A stretch of DNA of 64,000 nucleotides, taken from Aquincola tertiaricarbonis (GTDB lineage Bacteria; Pseudomonadota; Gammaproteobacteria; Burkholderiales; Burkholderiaceae_C). A program made the translations under genes and the position numbers. The notes under the pieces are model-generated. The model saw nothing but the letters and a program-made list of their open reading frames with translations. It did no database searches and was not told the DNA's origin. Shown here piece after piece: positions 35,747-59,397 of the stretch (position 1 is the stretch's first letter; each line of letters starts with the position of its first letter). The DNA is taken from assembly GCF_023573145.1 (NCBI RefSeq), contig NZ_CP097635.1, positions 434,001 through 498,000 on the forward strand. The letters run 5' to 3'.

Positions 35747-39552
<3,806 letters not shown>

Positions 39553-40635: not shown

Positions 40636-40730
40636 GCGTGACGCTGACGGTGCGCGGCTGGCCGGCGGCGGCCACGTTGAGGTCGTCCTGGGTGGCCGGG
40701 CGCTTGCCGAGCGTGAGCGACGTTGCCGCC

Positions 40731-41738: not shown

Positions 41739-41740
41739 GG

Positions 41741-42637: not shown

Positions 42638-42759
42638 GGGGGCTCCTCGGCAAGTGCAGGGTGACCGTCCTCTCGACGGCGGATCCATCAGCCCAGCCAA
42701 CGAGGCCATCGACCGCATCTGGACAAGCCTGCCTCCCATGAACGTGGGGGTGGGCCACC

Positions 42760-43353
42760 ATGACCCATGCGAACATGAAAACCATGCCGCCGCCCGCCCC
42801 CAACGACAGCGCCGACCGCACCGACGAGGCCGACGACCAGCCACCTGCCAGCTGGCAGGCCGCCTACCCCGAGCTGAAGAAAATCGCCCGCGCCCGCCTT
42901 CAGGCCGCCGGGACGGGCACGCCCGGGCTCAACACCACGGCCTTGGTGCACGAAAGCTTTCTGCGCCTGGCCGGCCGGATGGACACGCTGCACTTCGACA
43001 GCCGCGGCCACTTCTATGCCTATGCCGCGCGGGTGATGCGCTCCGTCATCGTCGACCTGGTGCGCCAGCAGGCCACCGACCGGCGCGGCGGTGGTGCCGC
43101 CCATGTGACGCTGGACACCGTGCTGGCCGACGGCCTGGCCGGCCCCGACGACGCGGAGGCGCTGCGCGTGGACGAGGCGCTGACCACCCTGGCCACGGTG
43201 GAGCCGCGCCTGGCCCAGGTGGTGGAGATGCGCTACTTCGCCGGCATGGCCGATGCCGAGATCGCCCAGGTGCTGAGCCTGACCGACCGCACCGTGCGCC
43301 GCGACTGGGACAAGGCGCGGCTGCTGCTGCGGTCGATGTTGAGCCAGCCCTGA
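42760..43353 (+). CDS. ECF-type RNA polymerase sigma factor
   Basis: A 197-residue extracytoplasmic-function sigma factor of the Sigma70_ECF type often encoded with protein kinases. Region 2 covers about residues 40-100 (ALVHESFLRLAGR, HFYAYAARVMRSVIVDLVRQQ). Region 4 covers 140-195 (RLAQVVEMRYFAGMADAEIA, then VLSLTDRTVRRDWDKARLLL). The first 35 residues are acidic and probably flexible. No anti-sigma gene is present; the adjacent kinase is likely to control it by phosphorylation. It diverges from the PEP-CTERM genes. Confidence 0.92.
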   Translation: MTHANMKTMPPPAPNDSADRTDEADDQPPASWQAAYPELKKIARARLQAAGTGTPGLNTTALVHESFLRLAGRMDTLHFDSRGHFYAYAARVMRSVIVDLVRQQATDRRGGGAAHVTLDTVLADGLAGPDDAEALRVDEALTTLATVEPRLAQVVEMRYFAGMADAEIAQVLSLTDRTVRRDWDKARLLLRSMLSQP

Positions 43354-43393
43354 TGTCCGCTTCGGCCTCCCTGTCCCGTTGGCCGCTGCAGCG

Positions 43394-46252
43394 ATGACCG
43401 CCCTGCCCTGCCCGCCCGAACATTGGCCCGCCTTTTCGCGCCGGCTGGATGCCCTGCTGGCGCTGCCCGCCGAACAGCGTGCCGACGCGCTGCAAGCGCT
43501 GCCCGCTGAAGAAGCCGTGCTGCGCCCCTGGCTGGCCGCCGTGCTGGCACAGCAGGCCGACGCACTGGCCGACCACTACCTGAGCACGCCGCGCTGGGCG
43601 CCCGCGGCCGACGAGGCACCGGTGCACCGGACGGGCCAGCGCATCGGCCCCTGGCAGCTGCTGCGCGAGCTGGGCCACGGCGGCATGGGCGTGGTGTGGC
43701 TGGCCGAGCGGGCCGATGGCGCCTATGCCCGCCAGGTGGCACTGAAGCTGCCCCATCTGCACCTGCTGGAAAACCTCAACGCCGCGGGCGTGCGGGCCCG
43801 CTTCGCCCGCGAGCGCGACATCCTGGCCGGGCTGGCGCACCCGCACATCGCGCGCTTCTACGACGCCGGTGTCACCGACGCTGCCGGCCCCGATGGCGAG
43901 GCCGCCGCCGGCCAGCCCTGGCTGGCGCTGGAGGCGGTGGAAGGCCTGCCCATCACCACCTGGTGCCAGCAACGCGCGCTGCCGCTGGACGCCCGGCTGG
44001 CGCTGTTCGACCAGGTGGCCGACGCCGTGGCCCATGCCCACGGCCGGCTGGTGGCCCACCGAGACCTCAAGCCCGCCAACGTGCTGGTGACGGCCGATGG
44101 GCAGGTCAAGCTGCTGGACTTCGGCATCGCCAAACTGCTGCAGGCCGGTGACGGCGGCGACCCCACCGCCAACGCCGACAGCACCGCCCTGACCCGCGCC
44201 CTGGGTGTGCTGGCCACGCCGCGCTACGCCGCGCCCGAGCAGCTGGCCGGTGGCCCGGTGAGCGTGGCCACCGACGTCTACGCGCTGGGGCTGATGCTGT
44301 TCGAGCTGCTGACCGACCAGCCGGCCTTTGGCGCCGACACCCCGGGCCGGCACCGCGAGACCACGCGCGACGAACCGCCGCAGCCCTCGCGCGTGGCTGC
44401 CACACCGGCGCTGCGCCGAGCGCTGGCCGGCGACCTGGACGCCATCGTCGCGCAGGCGCTGCAGCCGGCGCCCGAGGCGCGCTACCCCTCGGTGGCGGCG
44501 CTGGCCGACGACCTGCGCCGCCACCGCCGGCACCTGCCGCTGCGGGCGCGCCGGCTCAGCACGGGCCAGCGGCTGGCGCGCTATGTGCGCCGCCACCGGC
44601 TGCCAGTGGCGCTGGGCAGCGCGCTGGCGCTGGTGCTGGTGGTGGGCGTGGCCGGCGTGGCATGGCAGGCCCACGAGGCCCGCGCCCAGGCCCGCCGTGC
44701 CGAGGCGGTGAAGGACTTTCTGCTGGGTGTGTTCAGCGCCGCCGATCCGCGTGTGGCCGGCGGCAAGCCGGACGGCCAGACCACCGCCAAGACCCTGCTC
44801 GACCGCAGCGCCGCGCGCATCGACGCCCAGTTCGCCCATGACCCCGACCTGCGCATCGAGCTGCTGCGCACCGCCGCCGACATCTACCGCGAGCTGGGCG
44901 AAGACGCCGCCTACGAAGCCCTGCAGCAGCGCCAGCTGGCCGTGGTGCTGCAGCACCACGGCCCGCTGCACCCCAACGTGCTGGAAGGCCAGCTGGAAGC
45001 CGCCATGCGCGCCTACGGCCGCGGTGATCAGGACGAATGCCGCCGGCTACTGGCGGTGGCCGACGAGGGCCTGCGCCGCGCCGGCCGCGAGCGTGATCCG
45101 CTGCGCGCCCATTGGTGGACCACGCGCGGCATCTGCCTGCGCGACCAGCCCGACCAGGCCGACGCCCGGCTGCAGGCCCTGCAGCGCGGCGCCGCGCTGT
45201 CCGCCGAGGTGGAAGCCGGCGGCCGTGGCCACGTCACCGCCCTGGCCGAGCTGGCCACCGAGCACAGCACCCAGGGCCGGCAGGCCGAGGCCATCGCCAC
45301 CAACCGCCAGGCCATCGCCATGGCCCAAGCCCTGCCGCAGCGCAACGAGGCCGAGCTGCAGACCCTGTACGGCAACCTGGGCCTGGCCCTGCAGCAAAGC
45401 GGCGATCTGGCCGCCGCCGCCGCGGCCTATGGCCAGGCCGCCGACATCGCCGAGCGCACCAGCGGCGCCGGCTTCCCGGTGGCCTGGCTGCCCCGCGCCA
45501 AGCATGCACGCACGCTGCACCTGGCCGGGCAGCGGGCCGAGGCGCAGCCGCTGTTCGAGCGCCTGCTGGCGCAGATCGGCGACCGCACCGACCTGCCCGA
45601 TGCCAACGTGGTGCGCGAGGACGCCGGTGAACGCCTGGCCGCCGAGGGCCGCGCCGCGCAAGGGCTGCCCTTGCTGCTGCAGGCCCAGGCCGCCTACAGC
45701 CGCACCGCGCAGTACGACTTCGACCAGCGCCGGGTGCAGCGCCACATCGGCGACGCGCTGGCCCGCCTGGGCCGCCATGAAGAAGCGCTGGCCACGCTGC
45801 GCAGCGCCATGGCCGCCTTCGAGGCCGCCGACCCACCCGGCCGGCAGCCCACCGCGGCCTGCCGCGAGCGCCTGGGCCGGCTGCTGCTGGACATGGGCCG
45901 GCCCCAGGAAGCGCAGCAGCACCTGCAGCGCGTGGTCGACGAAGCCGCCGTCAAGACCTGGAGCCACGTGGCCCTGGCCCAGGCCGGCCTGGCCCGCGCC
46001 GCGCTGGCCCGTGGTGCGCTGCCCAAAGCCCAGGCCCTGAGCCAGCAGGCCCTGGCCACCTGGGACCGGCTGACCGGCTTTCGTGACGTGCGCATGCAGG
46101 CCTACTTGTGGCGCGTGCGCGCCGCGGTGCTGGCTGCGGCCGGCGACACCGCCGCCGCCCAGGCCCTGCGCGACCGCGCCCTGGCCGCCGCCCGCCGCAC
46201 CGATGCACCGGACAGCCCGACGGTGTTGCAGCCGGGGGTGGTGGGGTTGTGA
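43394..46252 (+). CDS. transmembrane Ser/Thr protein kinase with TPR sensor region
   Basis: A 952-residue Hanks-type kinase. The glycine loop is ELGHGGMGVVWLAER (near 94), the catalytic loop HRDLKPANVLV (His222, Asp224), DFG Asp242 in LLDFGIAKLL, and APE in TPRYAAPEQLAGG. A single membrane segment at about 403-425 (ALGSALALVLVVGVAGVAW) leads into about 500 residues of TPR-like helical repeats outside or beneath the membrane. ATG 43394 was chosen; a TTG five codons earlier also fits. It follows the ECF sigma gene by 40 bases and probably phosphorylates it. The neighbouring PEP-CTERM proteins may be the output. Confidence 0.92.
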   Translation: MTALPCPPEHWPAFSRRLDALLALPAEQRADALQALPAEEAVLRPWLAAVLAQQADALADHYLSTPRWAPAADEAPVHRTGQRIGPWQLLRELGHGGMGVVWLAERADGAYARQVALKLPHLHLLENLNAAGVRARFARERDILAGLAHPHIARFYDAGVTDAAGPDGEAAAGQPWLALEAVEGLPITTWCQQRALPLDARLALFDQVADAVAHAHGRLVAHRDLKPANVLVTADGQVKLLDFGIAKLLQAGDGGDPTANADSTALTRALGVLATPRYAAPEQLAGGPVSVATDVYALGLMLFELLTDQPAFGADTPGRHRETTRDEPPQPSRVAATPALRRALAGDLDAIVAQALQPAPEARYPSVAALADDLRRHRRHLPLRARRLSTGQRLARYVRRHRLPVALGSALALVLVVGVAGVAWQAHEARAQARRAEAVKDFLLGVFSAADPRVAGGKPDGQTTAKTLLDRSAARIDAQFAHDPDLRIELLRTAADIYRELGEDAAYEALQQRQLAVVLQHHGPLHPNVLEGQLEAAMRAYGRGDQDECRRLLAVADEGLRRAGRERDPLRAHWWTTRGICLRDQPDQADARLQALQRGAALSAEVEAGGRGHVTALAELATEHSTQGRQAEAIATNRQAIAMAQALPQRNEAELQTLYGNLGLALQQSGDLAAAAAAYGQAADIAERTSGAGFPVAWLPRAKHARTLHLAGQRAEAQPLFERLLAQIGDRTDLPDANVVREDAGERLAAEGRAAQGLPLLLQAQAAYSRTAQYDFDQRRVQRHIGDALARLGRHEEALATLRSAMAAFEAADPPGRQPTAACRERLGRLLLDMGRPQEAQQHLQRVVDEAAVKTWSHVALAQAGLARAALARGALPKAQALSQQALATWDRLTGFRDVRMQAYLWRVRAAVLAAAGDTAAAQALRDRALAAARRTDAPDSPTVLQPGVVGL

Positions 46253-46318
46253 GGGTAGCTAGCGGTTGAGCGGGAACCGCGCGGGACAAACGTTTAAGGT
46301 CGCCAGCCAGGTACGGAG

Positions 46319-49300
46319 GTGTGGCGCTCGACCAATTGCTCTCATGGCGGTTCAATCAGGAATGCCAACAACTTCAAGAAGGAGAGCAGCACCGAAGACG
46401 TGGGCAGCCAGATCAAGGCCGCGGGTACCGTTGCGCTGACCGCGGGCCAGGACTTGAACGCCAAAGCGGCGACGCTTGAGAGTTCGATGGCCGGTGTCAG
46501 CCTCACGGCAGGTCGCGATCTAGCATTGCTGGCGGGCGAAGCGACCGACGTCATCGAGCAGATGAGCCAGAGGACCAAGCGTGGCTTCCTCAAGAAAAAG
46601 ACCACCACCAGCTACAGCAAGAGCGAGGAGACGACCGCGCTCGGCACCGTAGTCTCAGGGCAAACACTGAACATCCAGGCTGGACGGGACCTCGGTATGT
46701 CGGCAGCACAGGCCGTGTCCGATCGGGGAACGAATCTGCAGGCCGGCGGCAACATCACGATCGACGGAGTGGCCGACCGCCTGGTCACCGAACAGTTCAG
46801 CAAGACCACCAAGTCGGGCCTGTTCGGCGGCGGTGGCCTGGGCATCACCATCGGCAAACAGTCCTTGGCACAAGCAGTCAAGACCAGCCAGGACCAGTAT
46901 CACGGTTCCATAGTGGGCGCGGTGCAGGGGGACGTCAGCATCACCGCAGGCGGGGGCTATCGCCAGGTCGGCTCACAGGTTCAAGCCCCCGGTGGTGATG
47001 TGAGCATCCAGGCTAAGGCGGTCGACATCGTCGAGGCCCGTGAACTTGCGAGCCAGAACGCAGAGACGCAATTCAAGCGCAGTGGCCTGTCAGTATCGGT
47101 GACCAGCCCGGTCATCAGCGCGCTTCAAACAGCCCGCAGCCAGCTCAAGGCAGGCAGCCAAGCCAGCGATGCACGCATCAAGTCCTTGGCTGCAGCCAAC
47201 ATCGCCCTCAACGGCCAACAAGCCGTGGATGCTGTGCAGGCCGGCCGAGCGCTGGAGGGCGGCAACGCCGCTGACAAGGCCGGCGGCATAGGGGTCAGCA
47301 TCAGCCTGGGCAGCACGCGCAGCCAGAGCCAACAGAACAGCCAGGCGGACAACGCCCATGGCAGCAGCGTGCGGGCAGGTGGCGATATCACCATCCAGGC
47401 GATCGGCGCGGGCCAGAACAGCGACCTCTCCGTTCGTGGCAGTGAGATCAGCGCTGCCGGCCATACGCTGCTGCGGGCCGAGGACCAGCTCAACCTGGTC
47501 GCCGCCCAAAACAGCACCCAGGAAAGCAGCCGCAGCAGGAACAGCAGCGGCAGCATCGGGGTGGGTATCAACCTGGGGTCGAACGGCGTCAGCGCAGGCG
47601 TGACCCTGAGCGCCAGCGCTGGCAAAGGCCAAGGCGCAGGCGACGCCACCAGCTACAGCAACAGCCAGATCAGCGGCAATCGTGTCACGTTGGAGAGCGG
47701 TGGCGACACCACCCTCCGGGGCGCCGTCGTCCAGGGCGAACGTGTCAGGGTCACAGCCGGTGGCAACCTCGGCATCGAAAGCCTGCAGGACCACAACCAG
47801 TACCGCGAGAAGAGTCAACAGGTCGGCGGCAGCGTGACCTTCGGCCCCTCGCCCGCTGGCAGCCTGAGTGCGGCCCAGACCAAGATCAACAGCGACTTCC
47901 TGAGCGTAGGCGAGCAGAGCGCGATCCGGGCGGGCGATGGAGGCTTTGATGTGCAGGTGGCGGGTAAGACCCAACTGACCGGCGCTCAGATCACCAGCAC
48001 GCAGAAGGCTATCGACCAGGACCACAACCGCTACCAAGCCAAGCAGGGCACGACCACGACTGACCTGCAGAACAGCGCCAGCTACAGCGCGCAGAGTGCG
48101 AGCGTGAGCCTGGGCGCAGGCACTCAGCCCGGAAAGGGTCTGCAGCTCAGCGGCGCAGGCATCGGCACGGATGACGGCAGCGCCAGCTCGACGAGCACGG
48201 CTGGCCTCAGCGGGATGGCGGGCAATACTGCCGCTCGCACCCGGGACACGGAGTTGGGCCTCAAGCCCATCTTCGACAAAGACAAGGCGCGCCAGGAGGT
48301 CAACGCGCAAGTGGCCATCACCAGCGAGTTCGGTAGGCAGATCATCCCGGTGGCCGCCGAAACGGCCGACCAAAGGGCGATTGATCTGCGGCGCCAGGGG
48401 AACGAAGAGGAAGCAAAAAAATGGGATGAAGGCGGCGTTTATCGCAACGGCCTGTACACGGCACTGGGCGCGCTGACTGGCGGTGCCGGTGGAGCTTTGG
48501 GGGCCGCGGCAAGCGCCACAGTGATCCCGGTGGTGGGGGAGGAGATTGCCAAACTCAACTTGCCCGAAGAGGTGCGGCAAGTGGCAACGCAGCTCGTTGG
48601 CGTTGCGGTGGGTGCAGCGGCAGGCGGGAGCGCCGGTGTAAGTGCGGCATTGCCGCAAACGGGTTACAACTATGTCAGTCACAGTCCGTTTGCTCAGGTA
48701 CGCCGAAGCGTCAGTCAGGAGAACGCCCGGCTCATGAACGAGTGTGAGGCGCGGTGTAACGAGCAGGACTTCAGGCGCATTGACCGCCAGATGAGTGCGC
48801 TGGAGGCGGCAGGCAATCTGGTCGCTATCAGCCAAGCGAGCCGGCTCAGCACCGACCAAGCTTTGCAACTGAGCGAGTTAGTGGCCTCGCTGCACCCCGT
48901 GTATGGCACCCCGATCGCGCTGTATCAGGCGATTAGCGGGCGTGGGGTGGTCACGCAGAACGACCTGAACTCTGTAGAGCGGTTCTTCAATGGCGTGGCT
49001 GCAGCGGTTCCGGCGGGTTCCGCGGCCTACAAAGTCCTGACTAGTGCGGCGGTGCAAACCCGAGTGATCGCCGCGCTAACGGCGAGTGCGGAGCAGGCTC
49101 TGGTCAAGTCCGGTGGTGCGCTCGACAGATCAGGTAATGCCCTGATCGACATGAGCAAGCTGAGCAATGAGCAGAAGGGCTTGATGGGTGATCTGTTTGG
49201 CCAGAATACAGTCAAGAAAATCGTGCCGGACGGGCAGAAGATCGCTCGCGTTCCAGGCGTGGGTGAGCAGGGGCTGGATGACTTGTACAAGGTCAGCCGC

Positions 49301-49630
49301 GCAGATGTTGAATACGTCAGCATCGAGTACAAGTTCGTTGGGCAAGACAACAAGGTCGGCTCCCAAGTCTTGAAAAACACCGCCGACGGCAAGCAAGGCA
49401 GTACCAGCTGGATTAGTGGGTCTGGGCGGATTGAAAGTGCGGTCGGAGAACAGGCCGCTCCCGCGATCTACAAAGCAATCGACGCTGGCCGATTTGAAAG
49501 CTGGGTCGTTACTGTTCGACCTGATGGCTCTACTGTTGTCGAAGTGCTAGACGCGCTGGGCAAGCGCAAGCCAATAGATACTTCAAATATAATAATTCCG
49601 AATTTTAACCTGTCTGGAGCCAAGCCATGA
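46319..49630 (+). CDS. 5'-truncated haemagglutinin/CdiA-type protein with PoNe-like nuclease C-terminus (module 1)
   Basis: A 1103-residue frame from a GTG that is unlikely to be a true start: FhaB/CdiA-like sequence begins only near residue 20 (KKESSTEDVGSQIKAAGT), and the signal peptide, two-partner-secretion domain and most haemagglutinin repeats are absent. Residues 20-670 are haemagglutinin repeat-type beta-helix; 700-780 are Ala/Gly-rich pretoxin; a Cys-containing linker (NECEARCNEQD) follows. The last 100 residues contain GLDDLYK, then IEYKF (Asp...Glu-x-Lys) and KQGSTSWI, a PD-(D/E)XK nuclease pattern like PoNe. The stop overlaps the immunity start (ATGA). Probably a silent orphan toxin cassette activated by recombination. 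Confidence 0.8.
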   Translation: MWRSTNCSHGGSIRNANNFKKESSTEDVGSQIKAAGTVALTAGQDLNAKAATLESSMAGVSLTAGRDLALLAGEATDVIEQMSQRTKRGFLKKKTTTSYSKSEETTALGTVVSGQTLNIQAGRDLGMSAAQAVSDRGTNLQAGGNITIDGVADRLVTEQFSKTTKSGLFGGGGLGITIGKQSLAQAVKTSQDQYHGSIVGAVQGDVSITAGGGYRQVGSQVQAPGGDVSIQAKAVDIVEARELASQNAETQFKRSGLSVSVTSPVISALQTARSQLKAGSQASDARIKSLAAANIALNGQQAVDAVQAGRALEGGNAADKAGGIGVSISLGSTRSQSQQNSQADNAHGSSVRAGGDITIQAIGAGQNSDLSVRGSEISAAGHTLLRAEDQLNLVAAQNSTQESSRSRNSSGSIGVGINLGSNGVSAGVTLSASAGKGQGAGDATSYSNSQISGNRVTLESGGDTTLRGAVVQGERVRVTAGGNLGIESLQDHNQYREKSQQVGGSVTFGPSPAGSLSAAQTKINSDFLSVGEQSAIRAGDGGFDVQVAGKTQLTGAQITSTQKAIDQDHNRYQAKQGTTTTDLQNSASYSAQSASVSLGAGTQPGKGLQLSGAGIGTDDGSASSTSTAGLSGMAGNTAARTRDTELGLKPIFDKDKARQEVNAQVAITSEFGRQIIPVAAETADQRAIDLRRQGNEEEAKKWDEGGVYRNGLYTALGALTGGAGGALGAAASATVIPVVGEEIAKLNLPEEVRQVATQLVGVAVGAAAGGSAGVSAALPQTGYNYVSHSPFAQVRRSVSQENARLMNECEARCNEQDFRRIDRQMSALEAAGNLVAISQASRLSTDQALQLSELVASLHPVYGTPIALYQAISGRGVVTQNDLNSVERFFNGVAAAVPAGSAAYKVLTSAAVQTRVIAALTASAEQALVKSGGALDRSGNALIDMSKLSNEQKGLMGDLFGQNTVKKIVPDGQKIARVPGVGEQGLDDLYKVSRADVEYVSIEYKFVGQDNKVGSQVLKNTADGKQGSTSWISGSGRIESAVGEQAAPAIYKAIDAGRFESWVVTVRPDGSTVVEVLDALGKRKPIDTSNIIIPNFNLSGAKP
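47433..48340 (+). repeat. direct repeat copy A inside haemagglutinin modules
   Basis: This stretch of the first module is closely repeated, with small insertions and substitutions, at 50605-51485 in the second. It covers the region from RGSE(I/T)SAAGH to VAITSEFG. It marks where one module could recombine with the other or with a full-length cdiA/fhaB elsewhere. Confidence 0.85.
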
Positions 49631-50502
49631 TCCGAGCAGCAATGGGTGATCAAGCATATTGGGTGCAATGGGGCCAGTTTAGACTTGCTACCATCAGGGA
49701 CGAAGAGGAGACGTTTAAAAGTCCAAGTGAAAATCCTGTCTATCGGCCTCAGTACGTACTCAACAATACGCTGCATCGCCTTCGATATATCGTAACTCTC
49801 TATTCATCGGGTGCGCCCATTCGAGAGCTCTCGCAGCACTTCTCCGGGCTGCTCGATGCCTGGGAGCTGTCGAACCGCCTGAGCGACGAGGTTTGCCGGG
49901 AGCACGGCTTGCAGAGTTGTCGGGATTGGGACTTCTCATTGAGCAACCTAAATCACTACAACTGGTGTTTCTGGCTGGTGGGTTTGGCTTTGTGCCTGGA
50001 GGTCCCCGAGGCGCAATGGCGGCGTTTGCTAGTGCTCTTAGCAGGAGAAGGTGAAGACGTGTTGCTGGATCGAGTGATCGCCAGCCGCAGCCCCGGGCGT
50101 CGTATCGGCCATACCCTTCTCCACGCAAAGCCCTACGGGCGCTTGCTCCAAGCGGTGCAGGCAAGTAAGGAGCAGCAAGCCGCGCTGCTGAAGGACTTCG
50201 TTGACTACTGGTATGCCGAACTCAAGCGCCCGCCGCCCCCGAACCGCAAAGCTCCGACAATCCAGCCCTTTTGGTACATCTGGGGTGACCCAGAAAGGCA
50301 CCCGATCGAGAAAGGCAGCTACTTTGGGCGCTGGTGCATCGAAGCAGCGGCTGCGGTCAAGGCCTTCGGCTTGGATGACCACCTTTGTCTGGGACATGAG
50401 CACTACCCCGGCGACTTGCTGAGACCAGACGGCCCCAGCACTCATCCTGCGCGCGATGAACCCAATAGAAGCTGGCTGAGTCGGCTGTTCGCAAAAAATT
50501 GA
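49627..50502 (+). CDS. PoNi-like immunity protein (DUF1911-type)
   Basis: A 291-residue cytoplasmic protein whose C-terminal half has the DUF1911/PoNi pattern: FWYIWGDPERHPIEKGSYFG, then RWCIEAAAAVKAFGLDD and HEHYPGDLLRPDG. The N-terminal half (HYNWCFWLVGLALCLEVPEA) corresponds to the DUF1910-like helical part. Such proteins neutralise PoNe DNase toxins. Translation is coupled to the upstream toxin by an ATGA overlap, so the pair forms a toxin/immunity module. The sequence is more AT-rich than flanking housekeeping genes. Family recognition is from memory of motifs. Confidence 0.82.
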   Translation: MIRAAMGDQAYWVQWGQFRLATIRDEEETFKSPSENPVYRPQYVLNNTLHRLRYIVTLYSSGAPIRELSQHFSGLLDAWELSNRLSDEVCREHGLQSCRDWDFSLSNLNHYNWCFWLVGLALCLEVPEAQWRRLLVLLAGEGEDVLLDRVIASRSPGRRIGHTLLHAKPYGRLLQAVQASKEQQAALLKDFVDYWYAELKRPPPPNRKAPTIQPFWYIWGDPERHPIEKGSYFGRWCIEAAAAVKAFGLDDHLCLGHEHYPGDLLRPDGPSTHPARDEPNRSWLSRLFAKN

Positions 50503-52985
50503 ACGGTTACGGGCGCACGGTATCCGTGATCAGCCCGGTGATGAGCGCCCGCGAGACGGCCAGCAGCCAGATCACGGCGGTCGGCCTGAGCCGCCACCTC
50601 TTCATTCGTGGCAGCGAGACCAGCGCTGCGGGCCATACGCTGTTGCGGGCCGAGGACCAGCTCAACCTGGTCGTCGCCCAGAACAGCACCCAGCAAAGCA
50701 GCCGCAGCAGCAAGTCGAACGGCGTCAGCGCAGGCGTGACCCTGAGCGCCAGCGCTGGCAAAGGCCAAGGCGCAGGCGACGCCACCAGCTACAGCAACAG
50801 CCAGATCAGCGGCAGTCGGGTCACGCTGGAGAGCGGTGGCGACACCACCCTCCGGGGCGCCGTCGTCCAGGGTGAACGTGTCAGGGTCGAAGCCGGCGGC
50901 AACCTCGGCATCGAAAGCCTGCAGGACCAGCACCAGTACCGTGAGAAGAGCAAACAGGTCGGCGGCAGCGTGACTATCGGCCCCTCGCCCGGTGGCAGCC
51001 TGAGCGCGGCTCAAACCAGGATCAACAGCGACTTCCTGAGCGTGGGCGAGCAGAGCGCGATCCGGGCGGGCGATGGAGGCTTTGATGTGCAGGTGGCGGG
51101 TAAGACCCAACTGACCGGCGCTCAGATCACCAGCACGCAGGCGGCTATCGACCAGGACAACAACCGCTACGAAGCCAAGCAGGGCACGACCACGACTGAC
51201 TTGCAGAACTCAGCCCGCTATGAGGCCAAGAGCGTGAGCGTGGGGCTGGCGGTCGGCACGCCGAAACCCGGTGCGTCGCTCAGCGCGGGGCTTTCGGGCG
51301 TGGGCCTCGGCTCCGACACAGGCAGCGCCAGCAGCACCAGCACGGCGGGCATCAGCGGGATGGAAGGCAACACCGCCGCACGCACCGCAGACGCGGGGTC
51401 GGGCCTCAAGCCCATCTTCGACAAAGACAAGGCACGCCAGGAGGTCAACGCGCAGGTGGCCATCACCAGCGAGTTTGGCCAGCAGGCGAGCAAAGCGGCG
51501 GGGGACTACGCCAAGCAGCAGTACGACCAGGCCAAAGAGGCGGGCGACAAGCAAGGCATGGCAGCCTGGGAAGAAGGCGGCCAGAACCGGGTGGCACTGC
51601 ATGTGCTGGTGGGCGGGCTCACGGGCGGGGTGCAGGGTGCTGTGGGCGCAGGCGCAGCCAGCGCGGCAGCGCCCAAGCTCGAAGAGCTGCAAGCGGGCCT
51701 GAAGACCGCGCTCAAAGAGGCTGGCCTGGGCGACAGCGCCGCCAACCTCATCTCCGGTCTGGCCGGCGGAGCCACAGCGGCCACGATCGGCGCCGCAGCC
51801 AGTGGCGGCAACACAGCCGGCGCGGTCACGGCCTTCAATGCCGATATCAACAATCGGCAGTTGCATCCGACGGAAAAGCAACGGATCCAACAACTGGCGG
51901 CCGACAAGGCGCGCACCACTTGCCGCGGCAACGGTGACTGCGAAAAGCAGGTCAGTTTGTATTGGACCGATATGCTGGAGCGCGCCGCCAAGGATCGAAT
52001 CGAGACGCAAGATGCGATCAAGAACCAAGCGTATTACAACCAGATCATTGCCGCATCGGGCAAGCCTGGCAGTGAAGCCTCGCTAGGGATGGGCGAACGC
52101 TTTTTCAACGATTTGGGCGAGGCGCATCTCCTGCTCAGTGCCAACGCGGGAGCCCCGATTCTGGACGCACGTGGACGCCCGGTGCTGGGCACCGACGGAA
52201 AGCCCCAGACCTACTTCAGTGCCACACAGGCCCAGCGCGACAACCCTTATGGAAACATCTTCCCGGGTGGATCGCCCAACAATCAAGTGTCCGTTATTGC
52301 GGGCAAGGAACAACGAGATCAAGCGCGCCTAGAGAGACTGAATGTGCTGAGTGGGCAAGCCGTGCTTGACACCACGATTGAAGAAATCCTGTTTGGGTTG
52401 AGGTTGCCCATCAGAGGCGGCGAACAAGCGGTGCAGGGGGTTGCAAGGGCCTGGGAGAGCAGCAAGGTGCTAGCTGCAGGCGAGATACTCATGTCCAAGG
52501 GAGGAAACATCTCGGCTCAACAACTCACCCGAGTGGGCAACCCTGCAGGCTTAACGTCGAGTGAACTCAATATGCTAAAACAGATTGACTCTATGAACAG
52601 CGCCCAAGCCGGAACCGTTCGCGAGGTAGTGTCCGACAGCTACTTTCAGCGCAATGAATTCAAGGCGATGGACGGCAAATGCGGCTCAGACAATTGCCTT
52701 GATCGTGTTTATCTCAAAGGGGACAAGGTGATCGTCAATGAGGTCAAGCCGCTTAATGCAGATGGGGCGATCAGCCTGAACCCCGGTTATGCCAAAAAAA
52801 ATCCTCCGACTCAAGGCTCGCTTGATTGGGTGACGAGTCGGGCGCGATTGCTTGAACAATCCGCTGACCCTGTCAAAGCTCAAACAGGCACTGCCATTCT
52901 AAAGGCAATCGACGATGGGAACCTGACCGTGGTTATCTCGGGCGTCAACCGAAACGGCATGGTCATCGTCAAGGTGAAACCATGA
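50499..52985 (+). CDS. second 5'-truncated haemagglutinin/CdiA-type protein with nuclease-like C-terminus (module 2)
   Basis: An 828-residue frame from a TTG overlapping the immunity stop, with no credible start or secretion domain. The first 25 residues (VSVISPVMSARETASSQ) resemble an internal part of module 1, after which about 300 bases present in module 1 are missing. Residues 36-330 repeat module 1; then an Ala/Gly-rich pretoxin, NADINNRQLHPTEKQRIQQL and the cysteine pair CRGNGDC. The last 110 residues hold CLDRVYLKG, VNEVKPLN (Asp...Glu-x-Lys), TQGSLDWV and ILKAIDDGN, alignable with the module 1 toxin tip. A different immunity family follows at an ATGA overlap. Confidence 0.8.
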   Translation: MNGYGRTVSVISPVMSARETASSQITAVGLSRHLFIRGSETSAAGHTLLRAEDQLNLVVAQNSTQQSSRSSKSNGVSAGVTLSASAGKGQGAGDATSYSNSQISGSRVTLESGGDTTLRGAVVQGERVRVEAGGNLGIESLQDQHQYREKSKQVGGSVTIGPSPGGSLSAAQTRINSDFLSVGEQSAIRAGDGGFDVQVAGKTQLTGAQITSTQAAIDQDNNRYEAKQGTTTTDLQNSARYEAKSVSVGLAVGTPKPGASLSAGLSGVGLGSDTGSASSTSTAGISGMEGNTAARTADAGSGLKPIFDKDKARQEVNAQVAITSEFGQQASKAAGDYAKQQYDQAKEAGDKQGMAAWEEGGQNRVALHVLVGGLTGGVQGAVGAGAASAAAPKLEELQAGLKTALKEAGLGDSAANLISGLAGGATAATIGAAASGGNTAGAVTAFNADINNRQLHPTEKQRIQQLAADKARTTCRGNGDCEKQVSLYWTDMLERAAKDRIETQDAIKNQAYYNQIIAASGKPGSEASLGMGERFFNDLGEAHLLLSANAGAPILDARGRPVLGTDGKPQTYFSATQAQRDNPYGNIFPGGSPNNQVSVIAGKEQRDQARLERLNVLSGQAVLDTTIEEILFGLRLPIRGGEQAVQGVARAWESSKVLAAGEILMSKGGNISAQQLTRVGNPAGLTSSELNMLKQIDSMNSAQAGTVREVVSDSYFQRNEFKAMDGKCGSDNCLDRVYLKGDKVIVNEVKPLNADGAISLNPGYAKKNPPTQGSLDWVTSRARLLEQSADPVKAQTGTAILKAIDDGNLTVVISGVNRNGMVIVKVKP
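50605..51485 (+). repeat. direct repeat copy B inside haemagglutinin modules
   Basis: Near-copy of 47433-48340. Differences include a short deletion after the Arg/Ser-rich NSTQ(E/Q)SSRS segment and scattered substitutions, and the two copies diverge completely about 10 bases after VAITSEFG. The abrupt loss of similarity at that point is the expected boundary between conserved stalk and exchangeable pretoxin/toxin. Confidence 0.85.
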
Positions 52986-53791
52986 GCAAAATGCAAGAGA
53001 CTGCAATGGAGGCCCTTTGTCGCGCGACTGAAGTTTTGGAGAAAAACACAATCGAACGCGTGACGGCGTATACAAGCAAATATTCCAAAATAAAACGAGG
53101 GGCAGTCTTATCCCACATTGCCGCCCTTCCAGAGATTCGCGGTTTAAAGGCGCATTTTATAGACAAGGACCCAAAAAGCCTGAAACAAAACTTTTATGTT
53201 GCCTGCAAACTCCATATGGCCAGCCTCAGAGAAGCTGAGCCCGTTTACGACCCCTTCTCCACATACACCCCCTTCCTATATGGACTGCTCAGCGACAGTC
53301 CAGAAATCCACGACTGGCTGACCCATGCCGCGCTCAAAGACAGGGAATATGTGAAAGGTCCACACTTCCGCTGGCATCAATTTCAACTAGTACTGCGCCG
53401 CGATGACGAGGCCCTACGCGAAACCATCGTCCAGGTCGCCAAAAAGGGGGGAAAGCACGACAAAGCACTGTCTCGAGCCGGACAAGACTTCTTCTCGTTG
53501 CTGCTCAAGCAAGACAAAGACGGCTTGGAAGCATTGATTGAAGACCAAGCCAAGATCAAATCGGTCAACGAACTCGAGGGTCAATTCTTGGCAGGCTTTG
53601 CCGTCATCCACGCCAAGCTGTGCTGGATCCGCGGCATCGAGGTGCAGATTCAGAACCCCTTGGTACCCATGGCGCTAATGCCGATTGAGCCGCTGGAAAC
53701 GTACGACGTGGAGTACGAATTTTTGCGACCGGGCTGGGAGCCGCCGCCACCGCCGGGGCTGCTCAACAAAATCAGGCGACTGTTTCTCTAA
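52982..53791 (+). CDS. Imm49-like immunity protein
   Basis: A 269-residue helical protein matching the Imm49 family as I recall it: YGLLSDSPEIHDWLTHAALK, HFRWHQFQLVLRRDDEAL, GQDFFSLLLKQDKDGLEALI and ALMPIEPLETYDVEYEF. It starts inside the stop of the module 2 toxin (ATGA), the position of a cognate immunity gene. The 5' half is AT-rich compared with the rest of the window, a sign of lateral transfer. It should neutralise the adjacent nuclease-like toxin tip; direct evidence is only positional. Confidence 0.82.
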   Translation: MSKMQETAMEALCRATEVLEKNTIERVTAYTSKYSKIKRGAVLSHIAALPEIRGLKAHFIDKDPKSLKQNFYVACKLHMASLREAEPVYDPFSTYTPFLYGLLSDSPEIHDWLTHAALKDREYVKGPHFRWHQFQLVLRRDDEALRETIVQVAKKGGKHDKALSRAGQDFFSLLLKQDKDGLEALIEDQAKIKSVNELEGQFLAGFAVIHAKLCWIRGIEVQIQNPLVPMALMPIEPLETYDVEYEFLRPGWEPPPPPGLLNKIRRLFL

Positions 53792-53989
53792 GACCATACC
53801 CTCAATAGGAAAGCAATAACCTGAGCAGCAATTGCGGCGGCCTCGGCTTGAGCCTTACTGGGCATGCGTGGCATGAAGATGGCGGCAACGGCGAGCGCGG
53901 GCATTGGAAGACAAGACCCATGCCAGGAACGCCGGGGCAACTGGTGGTGCTCCCTGTCACCTTGCCTGGCAGGTAAAGGAACGAGGATC
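53792..53989. other. 198-base spacer between the two Imm49-like genes
   Basis: No convincing gene was seen. The open frames here have low-complexity, non-protein-like translations. This is where a toxin cassette belonging to the second Imm49-like gene would be expected, but no haemagglutinin or nuclease remnant was recognised. Confidence 0.4.
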
Positions 53990-54798
53990 GTGTTGGCGCA
54001 CTACACCCCTGAACAAATTGCGTTCATTCAAGAGCGCAGGGAGCGCATTGTTGAATGGCCAAGAATTGGTACCGTTCCGGATGCGGTGGTAATGATTGAA
54101 AAAGGCGAAGGAAGCTTCAGTGGATGCCTGAGGGACCTAAAAAGGCTGCACACAAATATCGCCGACTACGCCTGGTTCGGCAATCAAGATCTTGCCACCT
54201 TCAAGCTCAACAGCTATGTGGTGGCCAAGTTCATTTACATGATCGCCAAGACCACGGGCGAAGAAGGTGTGATGCACGAGGCGGAATATTTTTACGCGTT
54301 GCTCAGTGACCACGAACCTGTGATTCAATGGATGATGCGGCAGCCCCCCACTCCAAGCTGTTCAAGCAGCGCATGCTCAATCCCAATCAGAACGAGTACC
54401 ACTACTACCAGTTGACCCTGGCGCTCAATGGCCAGTGGGATGAACTCGGGCGCAAGGCCGAGGCCTTCCTGCAGGAGCCCCCGACGAAGATGCAGAAGTA
54501 CGCGCCCGATATGCGCTTCTATTTGGCCTTGGCGCAAAAAGACAAGGCGGGCATGGAGGCAGCCTTGGCAGAGCTCACGAGCCCCAAGGTCGCCAAGGTA
54601 CGCAACGACGTGTTTGAACTCCCTGTTGCCAGCCGGTTCGTCTCGCCTTTTGCTTGTCTGTATGCCAAGGCCGCTCAACGCCATGGACTCGAATTGGACA
54701 TCGATACGGTGCTCATCCCCCAGGCTTGGCTGCCGGTTTGTCCGTTGCCAGACTACGCTGACCCCTACGAGTTCATGCGCACATGGAGTATCGAGTAA
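53990..54798 (+). pseudogene. Imm49-like immunity gene broken by a frameshift in a C-run
   Basis: Two overlapping frames together make one Imm49-like protein. The first runs from a GTG at 53990 (LAHYTPEQIAFIQERRER) to YALLSDHEPVIQWMMRQ. The second carries on with PHSKLFKQRMLNPNQNEYHY, LTLALNGQWDEL and ends DPYEFMRTWSIE at 54798. They separate at the C6 run in CGGCAGCCCCCCACTCC (about 54341-54346); a seventh C would restore one frame of about 270 codons. Positions such as LLSD...W and Y(H/Q)xxLxL(A/V)L match the intact Imm49-like neighbour. GAGG/AAGGA precede the GTG. No toxin gene precedes it, so it is an orphan immunity remnant or a sequencing error. Confidence 0.75.
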
Positions 54799-54937
54799 CT
54801 GGCTCGGGAACCTGCCACGCCTGAAGGGCTTCAACGACGCTTCTGACACCGACCGCAACCGTGAGCCGCTCCGCGCACCCTGCCGAAGCCAGCCTATGGA
54901 CGCTTTCCTCGTCGTTCCATGTGTTGGGACATCTCCC

Positions 54938-55513
54938 TCAGCACGGCATCACCGTCACTCGCGGCCACCGCTTCGTGTACTGCTTTTGGATCACCCGTTG
55001 CCGATAGGTTTCGACGCTCACTCGAACCGGATTGCGCCGCACTTGCAGGCCGAAGAGGTCTGCCAGTCCGTGTGGCGCGATGACCTCAAGGGTTCCAGCC
55101 CGGGTGAGAAACACCCCGACGGATGTGGCGTACTCCGGCCACGATGCAACCGCCTCTTCCAATGAGGTCAGCGGTGGCACTGGATGACCGAAGCAGCGCT
55201 CAAACCAGACGTGGACAAAGGCCTGGTTGGTGACCTCCCAGGGCAGACCAGGTTCAAGCGCCCGGAGCTTGGCCTCGATGCCGGCATCCTGGTCCGGCCG
55301 GCCCGGGTGTGCATCGAAGTACGCCACATCGACATCGGCCAGCGCCGACGGCCTTTCGTGACCGTGCAAATGGTCCCACACCAGATTTCGCACGGCGCCC
55401 GCCCCGATGCACCAGGACGCCAACTGCAATGACTGCACTGCCTCGAGTGCGGACATGAACCAAGGCGACGCACGGACGATGCGGGTGACTTCTTCGTGAA
55501 GAGAGAGGTTCAT
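54938..55513 (-). CDS. nucleotidyltransferase family protein (DUF925-like)
   Basis: A 191-residue protein of the DUF925 nucleotidyltransferase-like family: CIGAGAVRNLVWDHLHG followed by LADVDVAYFDAHPG, the pattern of a Pol-beta fold with the GxG...DxD-type acidic pair, and WPEYATSVGVFLTRAG with APHGLADLFGLQVRRNP in the C-terminal half. Substrate unknown. The ATG follows GAGAGAGG. It separates the toxin island from the SHMT gene and shares somewhat lower GC with the island, so the island may extend to here. Confidence 0.85.
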   Translation of the reverse strand: MNLSLHEEVTRIVRASPWFMSALEAVQSLQLASWCIGAGAVRNLVWDHLHGHERPSALADVDVAYFDAHPGRPDQDAGIEAKLRALEPGLPWEVTNQAFVHVWFERCFGHPVPPLTSLEEAVASWPEYATSVGVFLTRAGTLEVIAPHGLADLFGLQVRRNPVRVSVETYRQRVIQKQYTKRWPRVTVMPC

Positions 55514-55617
55514 GGGTCTGCCGATCTGCAGCTTCAAGGTGCACACGATATCGGGCCCGAGCGCCATCCGATCACCCGTCGATCGACCTCGCACTGGCAA
55601 GCACAACGCCCCGCGCC

Positions 55618-56904
55618 TCACCCCCCATAAATCGGAAACCGCCGCGTCATCGCCCTCACCTGCTCCGCGACCGCCGCCTCGGCCGCGGTGTTGTCCTGCG
55701 GGTTCGCGGCCAGGCCGGCCAGCACCTGCGCCACCCAGTCGCCCACCTGCTCGAATTCGGCGGTGCCGAAGCCGCGGGTGGTGCTGCCGCTGACGCCGAA
55801 GCGCAGGCCCGACATCACCTTGAGGTCGGCGGTGTCGGAGGGAATGGGGTTGGCATTGGAGATCAGGCCCGCGCGTTCCAGGCTGTGGGCGGCCGGGGCG
55901 CCGGTCAGGCCCTGCGGGCGCAGGTCGACCAGCATCAGCGGCGTGTCGGTGCCGCCGCCCAGCAGGTGGTAGCCATGCTGCTGCAGCCGCGCCGCCAGTG
56001 CGCGGGCGTTGGCCAGCACGGCGGCGGCGTGGGCCTTGAACTCCGGCCGCAGCGCCTCGCCCAGCGCCACCGCCTTGCCGGCCACGATGTGCAGGAAGGG
56101 CGTGCCCTGCAGTCCCGGGAACACCGCGTTGTTGATGGGCTTGGTCAGCGCCTCGTCGTTCCACAGCACGATGGCGCCACGCGGCCCGCGCAGCGACTTG
56201 TAGGTGGTGGTGGTCACGATGTCCGCATGCGGAAACGGATCGGCATGCGCGCCGCCCGCCACCAGGCCGGCGAAGTGGGCCATGTCCACCAAGAGCCGCG
56301 CGCCAGCGGCATCGGCCGCGCGGCGGAAGGCCTCGAAGTCCAGCGCGCGGGCATAGGCCGAGCCACCGGCGATCACCAGCTTGGGCCGGTGGCGGCGGGC
56401 CAGGTCGATCACCTGGTCGTAGTCGATCAGGCCGGTGTCGGGCTGCACGCCGTAGTTCACCACCTGGAACCAGCGGCCGCTGAAGTTGGCCGCTGCGCCG
56501 TGGCTCAGGTGGCCGCCGGCGTTGAGGTCCATCGCCAGGATCGTCTCGCCCGGCTGCGCCACCGCATGCAGCACGGCATGGTTGGCCTGGCTGCCCGAGT
56601 GCGGCTGCACATTGGCAAAGCGGCAGCCGAAGAGCTGGCAGGCTCGCTCGATGGCGGCACGCTCCACCGCATCCACATGCGCGGCACCGGCGTGGTAGCG
56701 CTTGCCGGGGTAGCCCTCCACCGTCTTGTTGGTGAGGATGGAGCCCTGCACCTCCAGCACCGCGCGGCTAACGATGTTCTCGGAGGCGATGAGTTCGATC
56801 ACCTCCTGCTGGCGCTGCAGCTCGTGTGCGATGGCTTCGGCGATCAGCGGGTCGGTCTGCGCCACGGGGGCATCGAAGTAGCCGGGGTGCACGGTGAGGC
56901 TCAT
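55618..56904 (-). CDS. serine hydroxymethyltransferase-like PLP enzyme (divergent)
   Basis: A 428-residue fold-type I PLP enzyme that closely follows SHMT: ELIASENIVSRAVLEVQGS, GYPGKRYHAG, ANVQPHSGSQANHAV, GGHLSHG, and VDMAHFAGLVAGG. At the PLP lysine the sequence reads TTTTYKSLRGPRG instead of the near-universal TTTTHKTLxGPRG, replacing the histidine beside the Schiff-base lysine with tyrosine, and YYGGCE becomes YHAGAA. The SGLRFGV arginine is retained. It may be a specialised SHMT acting on another hydroxy amino acid or an alpha-methylserine-type substrate. The SulP transporter gene lies 23 bases upstream on the same strand, suggesting an operon. Confidence 0.85.
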   Translation of the reverse strand: MSLTVHPGYFDAPVAQTDPLIAEAIAHELQRQQEVIELIASENIVSRAVLEVQGSILTNKTVEGYPGKRYHAGAAHVDAVERAAIERACQLFGCRFANVQPHSGSQANHAVLHAVAQPGETILAMDLNAGGHLSHGAAANFSGRWFQVVNYGVQPDTGLIDYDQVIDLARRHRPKLVIAGGSAYARALDFEAFRRAADAAGARLLVDMAHFAGLVAGGAHADPFPHADIVTTTTYKSLRGPRGAIVLWNDEALTKPINNAVFPGLQGTPFLHIVAGKAVALGEALRPEFKAHAAAVLANARALAARLQQHGYHLLGGGTDTPLMLVDLRPQGLTGAPAAHSLERAGLISNANPIPSDTADLKVMSGLRFGVSGSTTRGFGTAEFEQVGDWVAQVLAGLAANPQDNTAAEAAVAEQVRAMTRRFPIYGG

Positions 56905-56927
56905 CTCAACAGCTCCGTCAATAAAAA

Positions 56928-58757
56928 CTAGATTCCGTCGCCGGCCGATGTTCCCGGCCTGGGCGGGCAGTCGAAGAAGATGCGCACGTTGCAGCGCGCG
57001 CAGATGTCCGGGTCCAGCCGCGGCACGATGTCGGCCAGCGCGCTGCGCTTGTCTTTGTACAAGTGGTCTTCGCCCAGCCGCTGCAGGAAGCCGGTGGTCT
57101 GCCAGGCTTCGACGACCGGTGGCCGCGGCCGGTGGAAATACAGGTCGCCGCCCATCGCGCGGCGGGCGGTCAGCTCGTCCTGCCACAGCTCGGCACCGGC
57201 CAGGTCGATGAAGTTCATGCTCTTGCTCATCACCAGCAGGTGGCGCGGCGCATCGGGGCCGCGGCGCAGCTCGTGCAGGCGGTCGGCCACGTGCGCGGTG
57301 GCGCCGAAGTACACCGAGCCTTCCATGCGCAGCAGCTTGAGCTGCGGGCACTCGGGCAGCGTGCCGGGCGGGTGGCCGTCGATCACCACGAAGGGCCGGT
57401 CGTGCGCGCTCGGCTGGTCGAAGCCCATGGTGCGCATGGCCGGCCGCGAGGTGCGGTACAAGAAGCTCACCAGCGACAGCATGGTGCCCAGCAGGATGGC
57501 CACTTCCAGCCGCAGCGTCACCGTGGCCAGCAGCGTGGCGGCGGCAATCGCAAACTCGCTGCGGCTCACCTGCCACAGCCGCTGCCAGCGCGGCAGGTCG
57601 AACAGGCCCCAGGCCACCAGCAGCAGCAGGCCGGCAATCGCCGCCATCGGAATCAGCGCCAGCAGCGGCGCGCTGAAGGCCACCAGCAACACCAGCAGCC
57701 CGGCCGAAAACACCGCCGCCATCGGCGTGCGGGCGCCGGCTTCCAGGTTGGGCATCGAGCGGTTGAGCGAGCCGCAGGACACATAGCTGGACGAGAAGCT
57801 GCCCACGATGTTGGACAGCCCCTGGCCGATGAACTCGCGGTTGGCGTCGATGCGCTGGCCGCTGCGCACACCCACCGCCTTGGCGATGGAGAACGACTGG
57901 CCCAGCGCCACGATGGTGAGCGCAAAGGCCAGGCCGGCCAGCTCGGGCACCTGGCTCCACGACACCTGCGGCACCGTGAGCGGCGGCCAGGCCGAGCCCA
58001 CTTCACCCACGGTGCGCACCGGCGGCCACAGGCTGCCCTGCGCCAGCCACCAGCCCGCCAGGGTGCCCGCGGCCAGGCCCATCAGCATGAAAGGCGAGCT
58101 GCGCCGCCAGCGCCGCAGCCCCAGCGCGGTGGCCAGCGCCAGCGCGCCCACCAGCACCGCGCCGGGGTTGAGCCCTTCGATGCGGCGCACCACCTCCACC
58201 ACCACGGTGCCGGCACTCTGGCCGGCGGGCAGGGCGATGCCCAGCAGGTCGTGCGAGGCATGCACCGCGATGAGCAAGGCGGCGCCCGCGGTGAAGCCCT
58301 GCAGCGCCGCCGGCGAGATGAAGTTGGCCAGCGTGCCCAGCCGCAGCAGGCCGATGAGCGCCTGCATCACGCCCACCATCAGCGTGACCACCAGCGCCAG
58401 CTGCACGTACTGCGGCGTGCCCACCGCGGCCAGCGGCGCCAGCATGGCGTACAGCGCCAGCGAGTTGGCATTGGTGGGGCCCGACATCACATGCCGGCTG
58501 CTGCCGGCCAGCGCTGCCACCAGGCACGGCAGCACCGCGGTGTACAGGCCGAACTGCGGCGGCAGCCCGGCCAGCGTGGCAAAGGCGATGGCCTGCGGCA
58601 GCACCAGCACCGCGCCCAGCAGGCCGGCCAGCGCATCGGCCTTCAGCGTGCTGCGCGACAGCTCGAACACCCAGTCGCCCAGCAGGCGGGCGGCGGCCCG
58701 TTGCAGCGGGCGGGTTGGCACGGGGGCAGAAGCGGGGCGCGGCGCGTCAGTGGGCAT
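56928..58757 (-). CDS. SulP family anion transporter with STAS domain
   Basis: A 609-residue secondary transporter. About 12 membrane segments span residues 40-440, with the SulP motifs AGLPPQFGLYTAVLPCLVAA, SGPTNANSLALYAM and SFSSSYVSCGSLNRSMPN. The C-terminal STAS domain spans about 460-560 (MEGSVYFGATAHVADRL, FIDLAGAELWQDEL). A short tail carries CARCNVRIFFDC. SulP proteins move sulfate, bicarbonate or dicarboxylates; the ion is not evident. The start MPTDAPRPAS leaves a normal cytoplasmic leader. It is upstream of the SHMT-like gene and divergent from the cupin gene. Confidence 0.92.
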   Translation of the reverse strand: MPTDAPRPASAPVPTRPLQRAAARLLGDWVFELSRSTLKADALAGLLGAVLVLPQAIAFATLAGLPPQFGLYTAVLPCLVAALAGSSRHVMSGPTNANSLALYAMLAPLAAVGTPQYVQLALVVTLMVGVMQALIGLLRLGTLANFISPAALQGFTAGAALLIAVHASHDLLGIALPAGQSAGTVVVEVVRRIEGLNPGAVLVGALALATALGLRRWRRSSPFMLMGLAAGTLAGWWLAQGSLWPPVRTVGEVGSAWPPLTVPQVSWSQVPELAGLAFALTIVALGQSFSIAKAVGVRSGQRIDANREFIGQGLSNIVGSFSSSYVSCGSLNRSMPNLEAGARTPMAAVFSAGLLVLLVAFSAPLLALIPMAAIAGLLLLVAWGLFDLPRWQRLWQVSRSEFAIAAATLLATVTLRLEVAILLGTMLSLVSFLYRTSRPAMRTMGFDQPSAHDRPFVVIDGHPPGTLPECPQLKLLRMEGSVYFGATAHVADRLHELRRGPDAPRHLLVMSKSMNFIDLAGAELWQDELTARRAMGGDLYFHRPRPPVVEAWQTTGFLQRLGEDHLYKDKRSALADIVPRLDPDICARCNVRIFFDCPPRPGTSAGDGI

Positions 58758-58951
58758 GCGGAACGACAGGGGGCGGCGGGGCAGCAGGGCTAAAGCAGGG
58801 CTGGCAACCCCGCGGGCACCGCGGCCCGGGTGTGGCCATGGGCGGTGGACCGCCAGCGCAGCCCATGATAGGCGCCGCCCGGGATGCACCGCGCCGGGGT
58901 GGAACGGCGCATGCATGCTGCAGCGCATCAACTTCGCTGATGGAGGCATGC

Positions 58952-59380
58952 ATGCTGGACACCACCACCACACGCTTCTCCCACGTCAAGCCCGGCCAGA
59001 CGCTCTGGCGCGGCGAAGGCCTGCGGGACTTCTTCCTCTACCGCGACCTGGGCGTGGCCGACGCCACCAACGGCCAGGTGATCGCGCAGCTGGTCAAGGC
59101 CAACAGCGCGCCTGAAAAAGGCACCGGCTGGCACCGGCATGAGGCGCAGTTCCACCTGGTGTACATGCTCAAAGGTTGGGCGCGCTTCATGTACGGCGAC
59201 CAGGAGACCCTGGTGGAAGCGGGCGACATGGTGCACCAGCGCCCCGGCATCGTGCACTTTCTGTTCGACTACTCGCCCGACATGGAGTACCTGGAGATCG
59301 TCGGGCCGGCCGACTTCGGCACCGTGGACGTGGAAGGCCCCTGCCCGGTGCCGGCGCCGGGGGCCTGGCCAGCCGCTTGA
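58952..59380 (+). CDS. cupin domain protein
   Basis: A 142-residue single-cupin protein. Metal ligands are suggested by WHRHEAQFHLVYMLKGWARF (His, His, Glu/Gln) and a second motif HQRPGIVHFLFDYS with a further histidine. GDQETLVEAGDMVHQRPG is the inter-motif region. A strong GGAGG lies five bases before this ATG; an ATG 12 bases upstream is in frame but lies before the GGAGG. Function unknown; cupins of this size may be dioxygenases, isomerases or small-molecule binders. Confidence 0.87.
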   Translation: MLDTTTTRFSHVKPGQTLWRGEGLRDFFLYRDLGVADATNGQVIAQLVKANSAPEKGTGWHRHEAQFHLVYMLKGWARFMYGDQETLVEAGDMVHQRPGIVHFLFDYSPDMEYLEIVGPADFGTVDVEGPCPVPAPGAWPAA

Positions 59381-59397
59381 GCCGCCAGCCTTCCTGA

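Follow-up and report, generated by a model that had tools for sequence, protein, structure and literature searches.

Tandem fragments of CdiA/FhaB-type proteins, each with a toxin tip and an immunity gene, pose a simple question: is it the toxins or the immunity genes for which such orphan modules are retained? The question becomes testable in a 64,000-nucleotide stretch of Aquincola tertiaricarbonis (contig NZ_CP097635.1, positions 434,001 to 498,000; hereafter the window, whose own coordinates are used throughout), where two modules lie in tandem and their toxins have no visible delivery route. We consider it likely, though well short of certain, that they form a front-less orphan array of a two-partner-secretion contact-dependent inhibition (CDI) locus (cdiA-CT/cdiI, tpsC-like), probably acquired horizontally, most likely kept for its immunity genes, and with tips exchanged via its stalk repeats.

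The array comprises four open reading frames (ORFs) on the + strand, P0001, P0002, P0003, and P0004, which succeed one another from 46319 to 53791 with 4-nucleotide overlaps. They make up two head-to-tail modules, in each of which a haemagglutinin stalk (PF13332) leads into a toxin tip, and an ATGA overlap couples the tip to an immunity gene. Module 1 (W1; P0001, 46319–49630, 1,103 amino acids [aa]) has its stalk up to about 48340 and its tip at about 49031–49630, and is followed by the PoNi immunity gene (P0002, 49627–50502, 291 aa). Module 2 (W2; P0003, 50499–52985, 828 aa) has its stalk up to about 51870 and its tip at about 52488–52985, and is followed by the Imm49 immunity gene (P0004, 52982–53791, 269 aa). 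Beyond both ATGA joints there is a second type of overlap, in that PoNi ends within a TTGA whose TTG can start module 2. This layout of tandem orphan fragments with coupled immunity genes had been proposed by a first-pass annotation of the letters alone, and it is borne out by the frames, the overlaps, and Pfam matches to PF13332 (2e-50 in P0001, 1.5e-25 in P0003), PoNi, and Imm49. The same annotation had described both fragments as devoid of signal peptide and secretion domain, and indeed neither an ESPR (signal peptide) nor a TPS domain was found in P0001 or P0003 with Pfam at an E-value of 0.01. The VENN motif, usual though not universal in orphan modules, was not seen in either translation; P0001 has a sub-threshold match to PT-TG, and module 1 retains a long stalk piece of about 660 codons. 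Module 1 has as its first possible start in frame a GTG abutting a GGAG, with no other start in the next 15 codons, and the homology of P0001 to its closest matches begins at about residues 8–15; the module thus resembles a truncated piece, not a gene with a fresh start.

The two tips are unrelated by family and by immunity partner. Tip 1 is a predicted PoNe-like nuclease domain (49031–49630, +) with D987, E1003, and K1005 of P0001; its GLDx2Y and Yx3ExK motifs were seen, Kx3GE was not, and its predicted model is of moderate quality. P0002 behind it is a PoNi protein (PF08929 at 1.4e-20, PF08928 at 1.2e-12; 48.4 and 74.6 bits for PoNi_N and PoNi_C, with cut-offs of 22.4 and 25), and a protein 69% identical to it lies, likewise behind the same tip type, on a contig of Limnohabitans sp. 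DM1 (L008). Tip 2 is a predicted Tox-REase-like, restriction-fold domain (52488–52985, +) with E709, D735, Y738, E748, K750, and Q772 of P0003; no Pfam family matched it, and two residues beside the conserved Asp735 differ from those of 11 out of 11 relatives. P0004 behind it is an Imm49 protein (PF15575 at 3e-8; 34.0 bits, cut-off 30.1). The earlier description of the tips as intact accordingly stands for the frames and for the PD-(D/E)xK core residues, which both tips retain, and is qualified at the two divergent residues of tip 2, whose activity is putative. A solved-structure search with PoNi gave no match, and NCBIfam returned nothing useful for five proteins. Behind P0004 lies a second Imm49-type gene (53864–54798, +), its halves in two frames, 53864–54415 (P0005) and 54328–54798 (P0006). 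The second half matches PF15575 at 2.9e-12; the first is without a Pfam match and was assigned by eye from its translation. The switch of frame falls near 54.34 kb beside a run of C, and both a real lesion and a sequencing error are possible. Between the two Imm49 genes, a 49-residue frame at 53792–53980 may be a relic of a third toxin end; Pfam did not match it, and none of the loci compared has a convincing counterpart.

One answer to the opening question, and that of the first-pass annotation, is that the modules are a toxin reservoir, that is, silent donors that recombine, by way of the stalk, into a complete cdiA in their own cell. Orphan modules of Yersinia pestis and Neisseria are known to have such a role (PMC3150448 and PMC3848433), and the retained frames agree with it, as does the stalk recombination described below. 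The A. tertiaricarbonis genome (7,110,107 bases) has seven genes with a TPS domain (8/8 candidates scored), with frames of 1,639–3,697 aa on contigs C1 and C2 (L001–L007). PF13332 was found in the genome only in the two modules (12/12 candidates scored), and in none of the seven TPS-domain frames; the P0001 stalk likewise matched only the two modules (30/30 candidates scored). A search for a full-length fhaB/cdiA elsewhere in the genome with the stalk of 46.4–48.3 kb, as the annotation had envisaged, therefore came back with nothing beyond the modules themselves. At the array locus neither a CdiB nor a full-length CdiA with a TPS domain was found, and a kinase gene lies directly upstream instead. 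Elsewhere in the genome, the DNA of 46000–55300 matched only a piece of the kinase end, at 72%, with 40 of 395 candidates scored. With no stalk match outside the modules, the genome as assembled offers no visible target for activation through a resident cdiA, and a resident full-length cdiA was rejected as recipient; even the CdiA stalk of a sister species is only 67.6–69.3% identical in DNA over the matched part. A reservoir for the same cell is, on this evidence, quite improbable. Mis-assembly of the array looks unlikely, as judged from the assembly alone: it has four contigs, is rated 100% complete, and the longest exact run common to W1 and W2 is 101 nucleotides.

The complete form of such a locus is seen in that sister species (G001, of the same genus), which has a CdiB (ShlB, POTRA) and a full-length CdiA, read as 4,597 aa, in which ESPR, TPS, and haemagglutinin repeats are combined with an Endonuclea_NS_2 tip. 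Where the immunity gene would stand is a 105-aa gene that Pfam does not match, followed by one whose Imm49 match is marginal (30.7 bits, cut-off 30.1). Residues 28–739 of P0001 are 48% identical to this CdiA, taken as a frame of 4,607 aa. A genome of another genus (G076) has five matches in a row (C1:2839838-2854353; L071:2297-16817), two of them short pieces; the TTGA junction occurs twice in this array, one tip is a deaminase, tails of immunity genes remain between modules, and the array ends in a truncated PoNe-side piece. There, no full-length cdiA with this stalk was found among 5 of 25 candidates scored, and the array is separated by at least 228 kb from each of the three TPS genes. The W2 stretch 50730–51869 is 83–85% identical in DNA to three G076 modules. 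P0001 has matches in at least 18 of the 149 genomes searched, its own included, a lower bound with at most five candidates scored per genome; homologue searches took proteins of 0.55–1.75 times the query length, and very long CdiA proteins thus lie outside their range. Among the best 120 of 166 matches, Roseateles, Mitsuaria, Limnohabitans, and others have truncated stalk-tip proteins of comparable length; in plasmid searches, every match (189 records for P0001, three for P0004) stayed below 60% identity. The closest named loci for P0001, from a contig scan with six short peptides that confirmed two loci, are in Limnohabitans and Polaromonas: the Limnohabitans sp. DM1 contig has at least three modules, and a Polaromonas metagenome-assembled genome has a 3,400-aa TPS frame followed by modules. 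In two of the Limnohabitans orphan modules (L008:2374-6657 and L008:7412-11962), an initial ESPR (PF13018) is joined straight to mid-stalk and the TPS domain is missing, which would fit an origin from full-length cdiA copies by internal deletion.

Comparison of these arrays identifies the stalk as the place of recombination. The two stalk repeats of the window (47411–48333, which includes a conversion tract, and 50583–51478, both + and delimited by DNA repeat comparison) have 84.5% DNA identity, and the aligned W1 and W2 stalks are 88% identical over 899 columns. Stalks are alike within arrays, at 86–95% (88% for W1/W2, 92–95% among three G076 modules, and 86% for two Limnohabitans modules), and stand at 64–79% for all other pairs, the G001 CdiA included. 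The W1/W2 likeness is patchy in 100-column windows, reaching 97–100% at columns 350–450 and dropping to 65–73% at columns 900–1000; W1 against the G076 modules mB or mD gives 67–83% at those same ranges. The maximum chi-square statistic is 69.1 for W1/W2, 38.0 for G076 mC/mD, 48.2 for Limnohabitans m2/m3, and 19.7 for W2/mD, with none of 5,000 permutations as high in each case, and 17.4 for W1/mD (7 of 5,000). This much of the reservoir model, namely recombination through the stalk, held up, together with a junction that carries different toxins in different genera. Duplication by an insertion element was rejected as the source of the modules, with no transposase family among the 25 ORFs scanned with Pfam; nor was an integrase family found among them, in keeping with the first-pass annotation.

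The junction in question spans the PoNi stop, the TTGA, and the start of the stalk (50497–50529, +) and is common to the window and G076, with none expected in 100 shuffles of the window. Around it, the window stretch 50374–50592, which covers the PoNi end and the start of module 2, is 84% identical to G076. Before the junction, G076 retains only the PoNi tail; behind it stands a tip of the BURPS668_1122-type deaminase in G076 and the restriction-fold tip in the window. A further G076 piece, behind the junction module, is 89% identical to window 48052–48966, the stalk end and PoNe-side start. Tip exchange behind a constant stalk is thus visible across genera.

How such an array came to its present site is most simply explained by horizontal acquisition. 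At up to three mismatches, the junction motif was found in 2 of 399 genomes sampled from the family, once in the A. tertiaricarbonis genome and twice in G076, and was absent from G001 and from two genomes of G076's genus (G241 and G318); the pattern was built from its three found copies, and its informative part is the absence elsewhere. The synonymous divergence (dS) of the stalks is 0.32–0.43 between the A. tertiaricarbonis genome and G076, little above the 0.21–0.27 between the two species of the own genus and lower than the 1.2–2.2 to Limnohabitans. The own-genus range rests on 6 of 12 comparisons, the other six having ratios of nonsynonymous to synonymous divergence (dN/dS) of at least 0.88 and looking like wrong-frame ORFs. 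In G001, the counterparts of window 36112–39424 and 56928–59607 lie about 120 bp apart (L059 17229-17353), so that the 17.5 kb between them in the window, array included, is absent there. This block (39424–56928) carries an alpha/beta hydrolase, a PEP-CTERM-like frame, a kinase, the array, a nucleotidyltransferase, and a serine hydroxymethyltransferase. The idea that the array is a remnant of the sister's cdi site was rejected, as the G001 site (C5, about 250351–268431) holds other DNA in the A. tertiaricarbonis genome: about 6.35 kb (L101:2925-9279) with, by eye, a HigB/HigA-type pair, a U32-type peptidase, and biotin genes, and with no blastn match at an E-value of 1e-4 to L070, the window, L071, or L008.

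A second answer would be that the modules are kept for nothing, being the 3′ remnant of a formerly complete cdi locus that lost its front by deletion and now drifts without function. Module 1, cut off in mid-stalk without a good start, the split Imm49 copy, the unusual residues of tip 2, and a dN/dS of 0.42 for W1 against W2 all fit such decay. Against it stand the four intact overlapping frames, gaps that are multiples of three in 6 of 6 cases between W1 and W2 and between PoNi and L008, and a dN/dS of 0.25–0.27 for the W2 stalk against G076, with the value of 0.25 obtained against mD despite a common truncated start; the W1 stalk end gives 0.19 against G076. As W2 and mD share this truncated start, the stalks have either been constrained since truncation or been renewed by recombination with constrained copies. 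We therefore regard plain decay as unlikely.

A third answer is that the overlaps themselves matter, the block acting in the cell as a toxin–antitoxin (addiction) unit in which translation coupled through ATGA, TTGA, and ATGA makes the immunity proteins necessary for survival. The overlaps do run through the whole block, and the TTGA junction is retained in two genera. Promoter-like sites are, however, at chance level (one found, on the other strand, with 1.9 expected), as are terminator-like sites; the start codons are weak, and in G076 the PoNi before the junction is a tail only. We would give this explanation very little credence.

Retention of a horizontally acquired array for its immunity genes has in turn several points weighing against it. 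The split Imm49-type gene and the unusual tip 2 residues beside the conserved Asp speak for decay, as set out above. A dN/dS of 0.11, obtained with Limnohabitans for both tip 1 and PoNi, speaks in favor of the account, but with dS (1.7 and 2.2) near saturation it is a rough value that mainly records an earlier period; the first 31 codons of module 2 behind the junction have no third-position excess (4, 7, and 7 differences, too few to decide). The cross-genus stalk dS is judged by the own-genus range. The G076 pair mB/mD has no clear breakpoint (maximum chi-square 9.4; 231 of 5,000 permutations as high).

On the favored account, the array would have arrived by horizontal transfer, either as tails without a cdiBA head or with a head that was later stripped. 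Homologous recombination between the direct stalk repeats that flank each tip–immunity pair could then exchange, duplicate, or delete such pairs. Its present benefit most likely would be immunity, through PoNi and Imm49, against neighbors that deliver such toxins; the tips, lacking a visible delivery route, would become usable only after recombination into a cdiA of similar stalk in another strain. More broadly, orphan CDI arrays might be free-standing mobile units, which move between genera without a delivery gene, settle at unrelated sites, are homogenized by conversion between stalk repeats, and keep a fixed coupled junction of immunity stop, TTGA, and stalk for toxin–immunity exchange, with selection acting on the array via immunity or addiction; we offer this generalization as a conjecture that is itself doubtful. 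Whatever its fate, orphan CDI modules are seen here behaving as a unit apart from any findable delivery gene, and the truncated junction that precedes different toxins in two genera serves as a marker of the exchange of tip–immunity pairs.

The G+C content is 68–76% in the two flanking stretches measured, 62–68% in the stalks and pretoxin part, and 52–57% in the tips and immunity genes, and the low values of the latter speak for the favored account. Upstream, a Ser/Thr kinase-TPR frame ends 66 bases before 46319; downstream, the minus strand carries a nucleotidyltransferase, a serine hydroxymethyltransferase, and a sulfate permease. The window contains no tRNA.

Among the closest known systems are orphan cdiA-CT/cdiI modules with recombination-driven exchange of tips (Poole et al., 2011; PMC3150448). 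These, too, have a truncated cdiA fragment, a variable tip with its cognate immunity gene behind, tandem arrays, and poor translation starts. Unlike here, the arrays there follow cdiBAI, and no cdiBA with this stalk was found in our genome; the VENN motif, not seen in our modules, is "usually" present there, although orphan fragments without it are also described, and the long stalk piece of our modules is a further difference. The tpsC cassettes of Neisseria meningitidis (Arenas et al., 2013; PMC3848433) are likewise N-terminally truncated TpsA homologues with a common central part, a differing 3′ end, and immunity ORFs between them, for which gene conversion was proposed and shown to be rare, and whose chief role was suggested to be the collection of immunity; these cassettes share one island with the tpsB and tpsA in front of them, whereas our array is stand-alone. 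Displaced orphan cdi tails of Acinetobacter (PMC6336857) resemble it in being tails and immunity genes left when new tips insert, and differ in their position behind a resident type-II cdi operon. Among the titles and abstracts listed for Burkholderiales arrays, for truncated cdiA or missing cdiB, and for concerted evolution of orphans, none described a stand-alone array, and one may still be in print.

The tips and immunity genes also have their counterparts. As in PoNe/PoNi (Jana et al., 2019; PMC6688995), a protein with PoNi_N and PoNi_C stands behind a tip with GxDx2Y and Yx3ExK; of the motif Kx3GE-GIDx2Y-Yx3ExK, our tip 1 differs in that Kx3GE was not seen and the I of GID is L, and its DNase activity is a prediction. 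As in Tox-REase-1/-6 with Imm49 (Zhang et al., 2012; PMC3482391), Imm49 stands beside a tip of predicted restriction fold in which E, D, ExK, Q, and Y are conserved, our tip 2 departing in its lack of a Pfam match and in the two unusual residues beside the conserved Asp. The array is, as such, a well-formed example of an already known kind, of moderate interest for its stand-alone state and its cross-genus junction, and it joins the orphan modules and tpsC cassettes for which PMC3150448 and PMC3848433 propose both roles, as toxin reservoir and as source of immunity.

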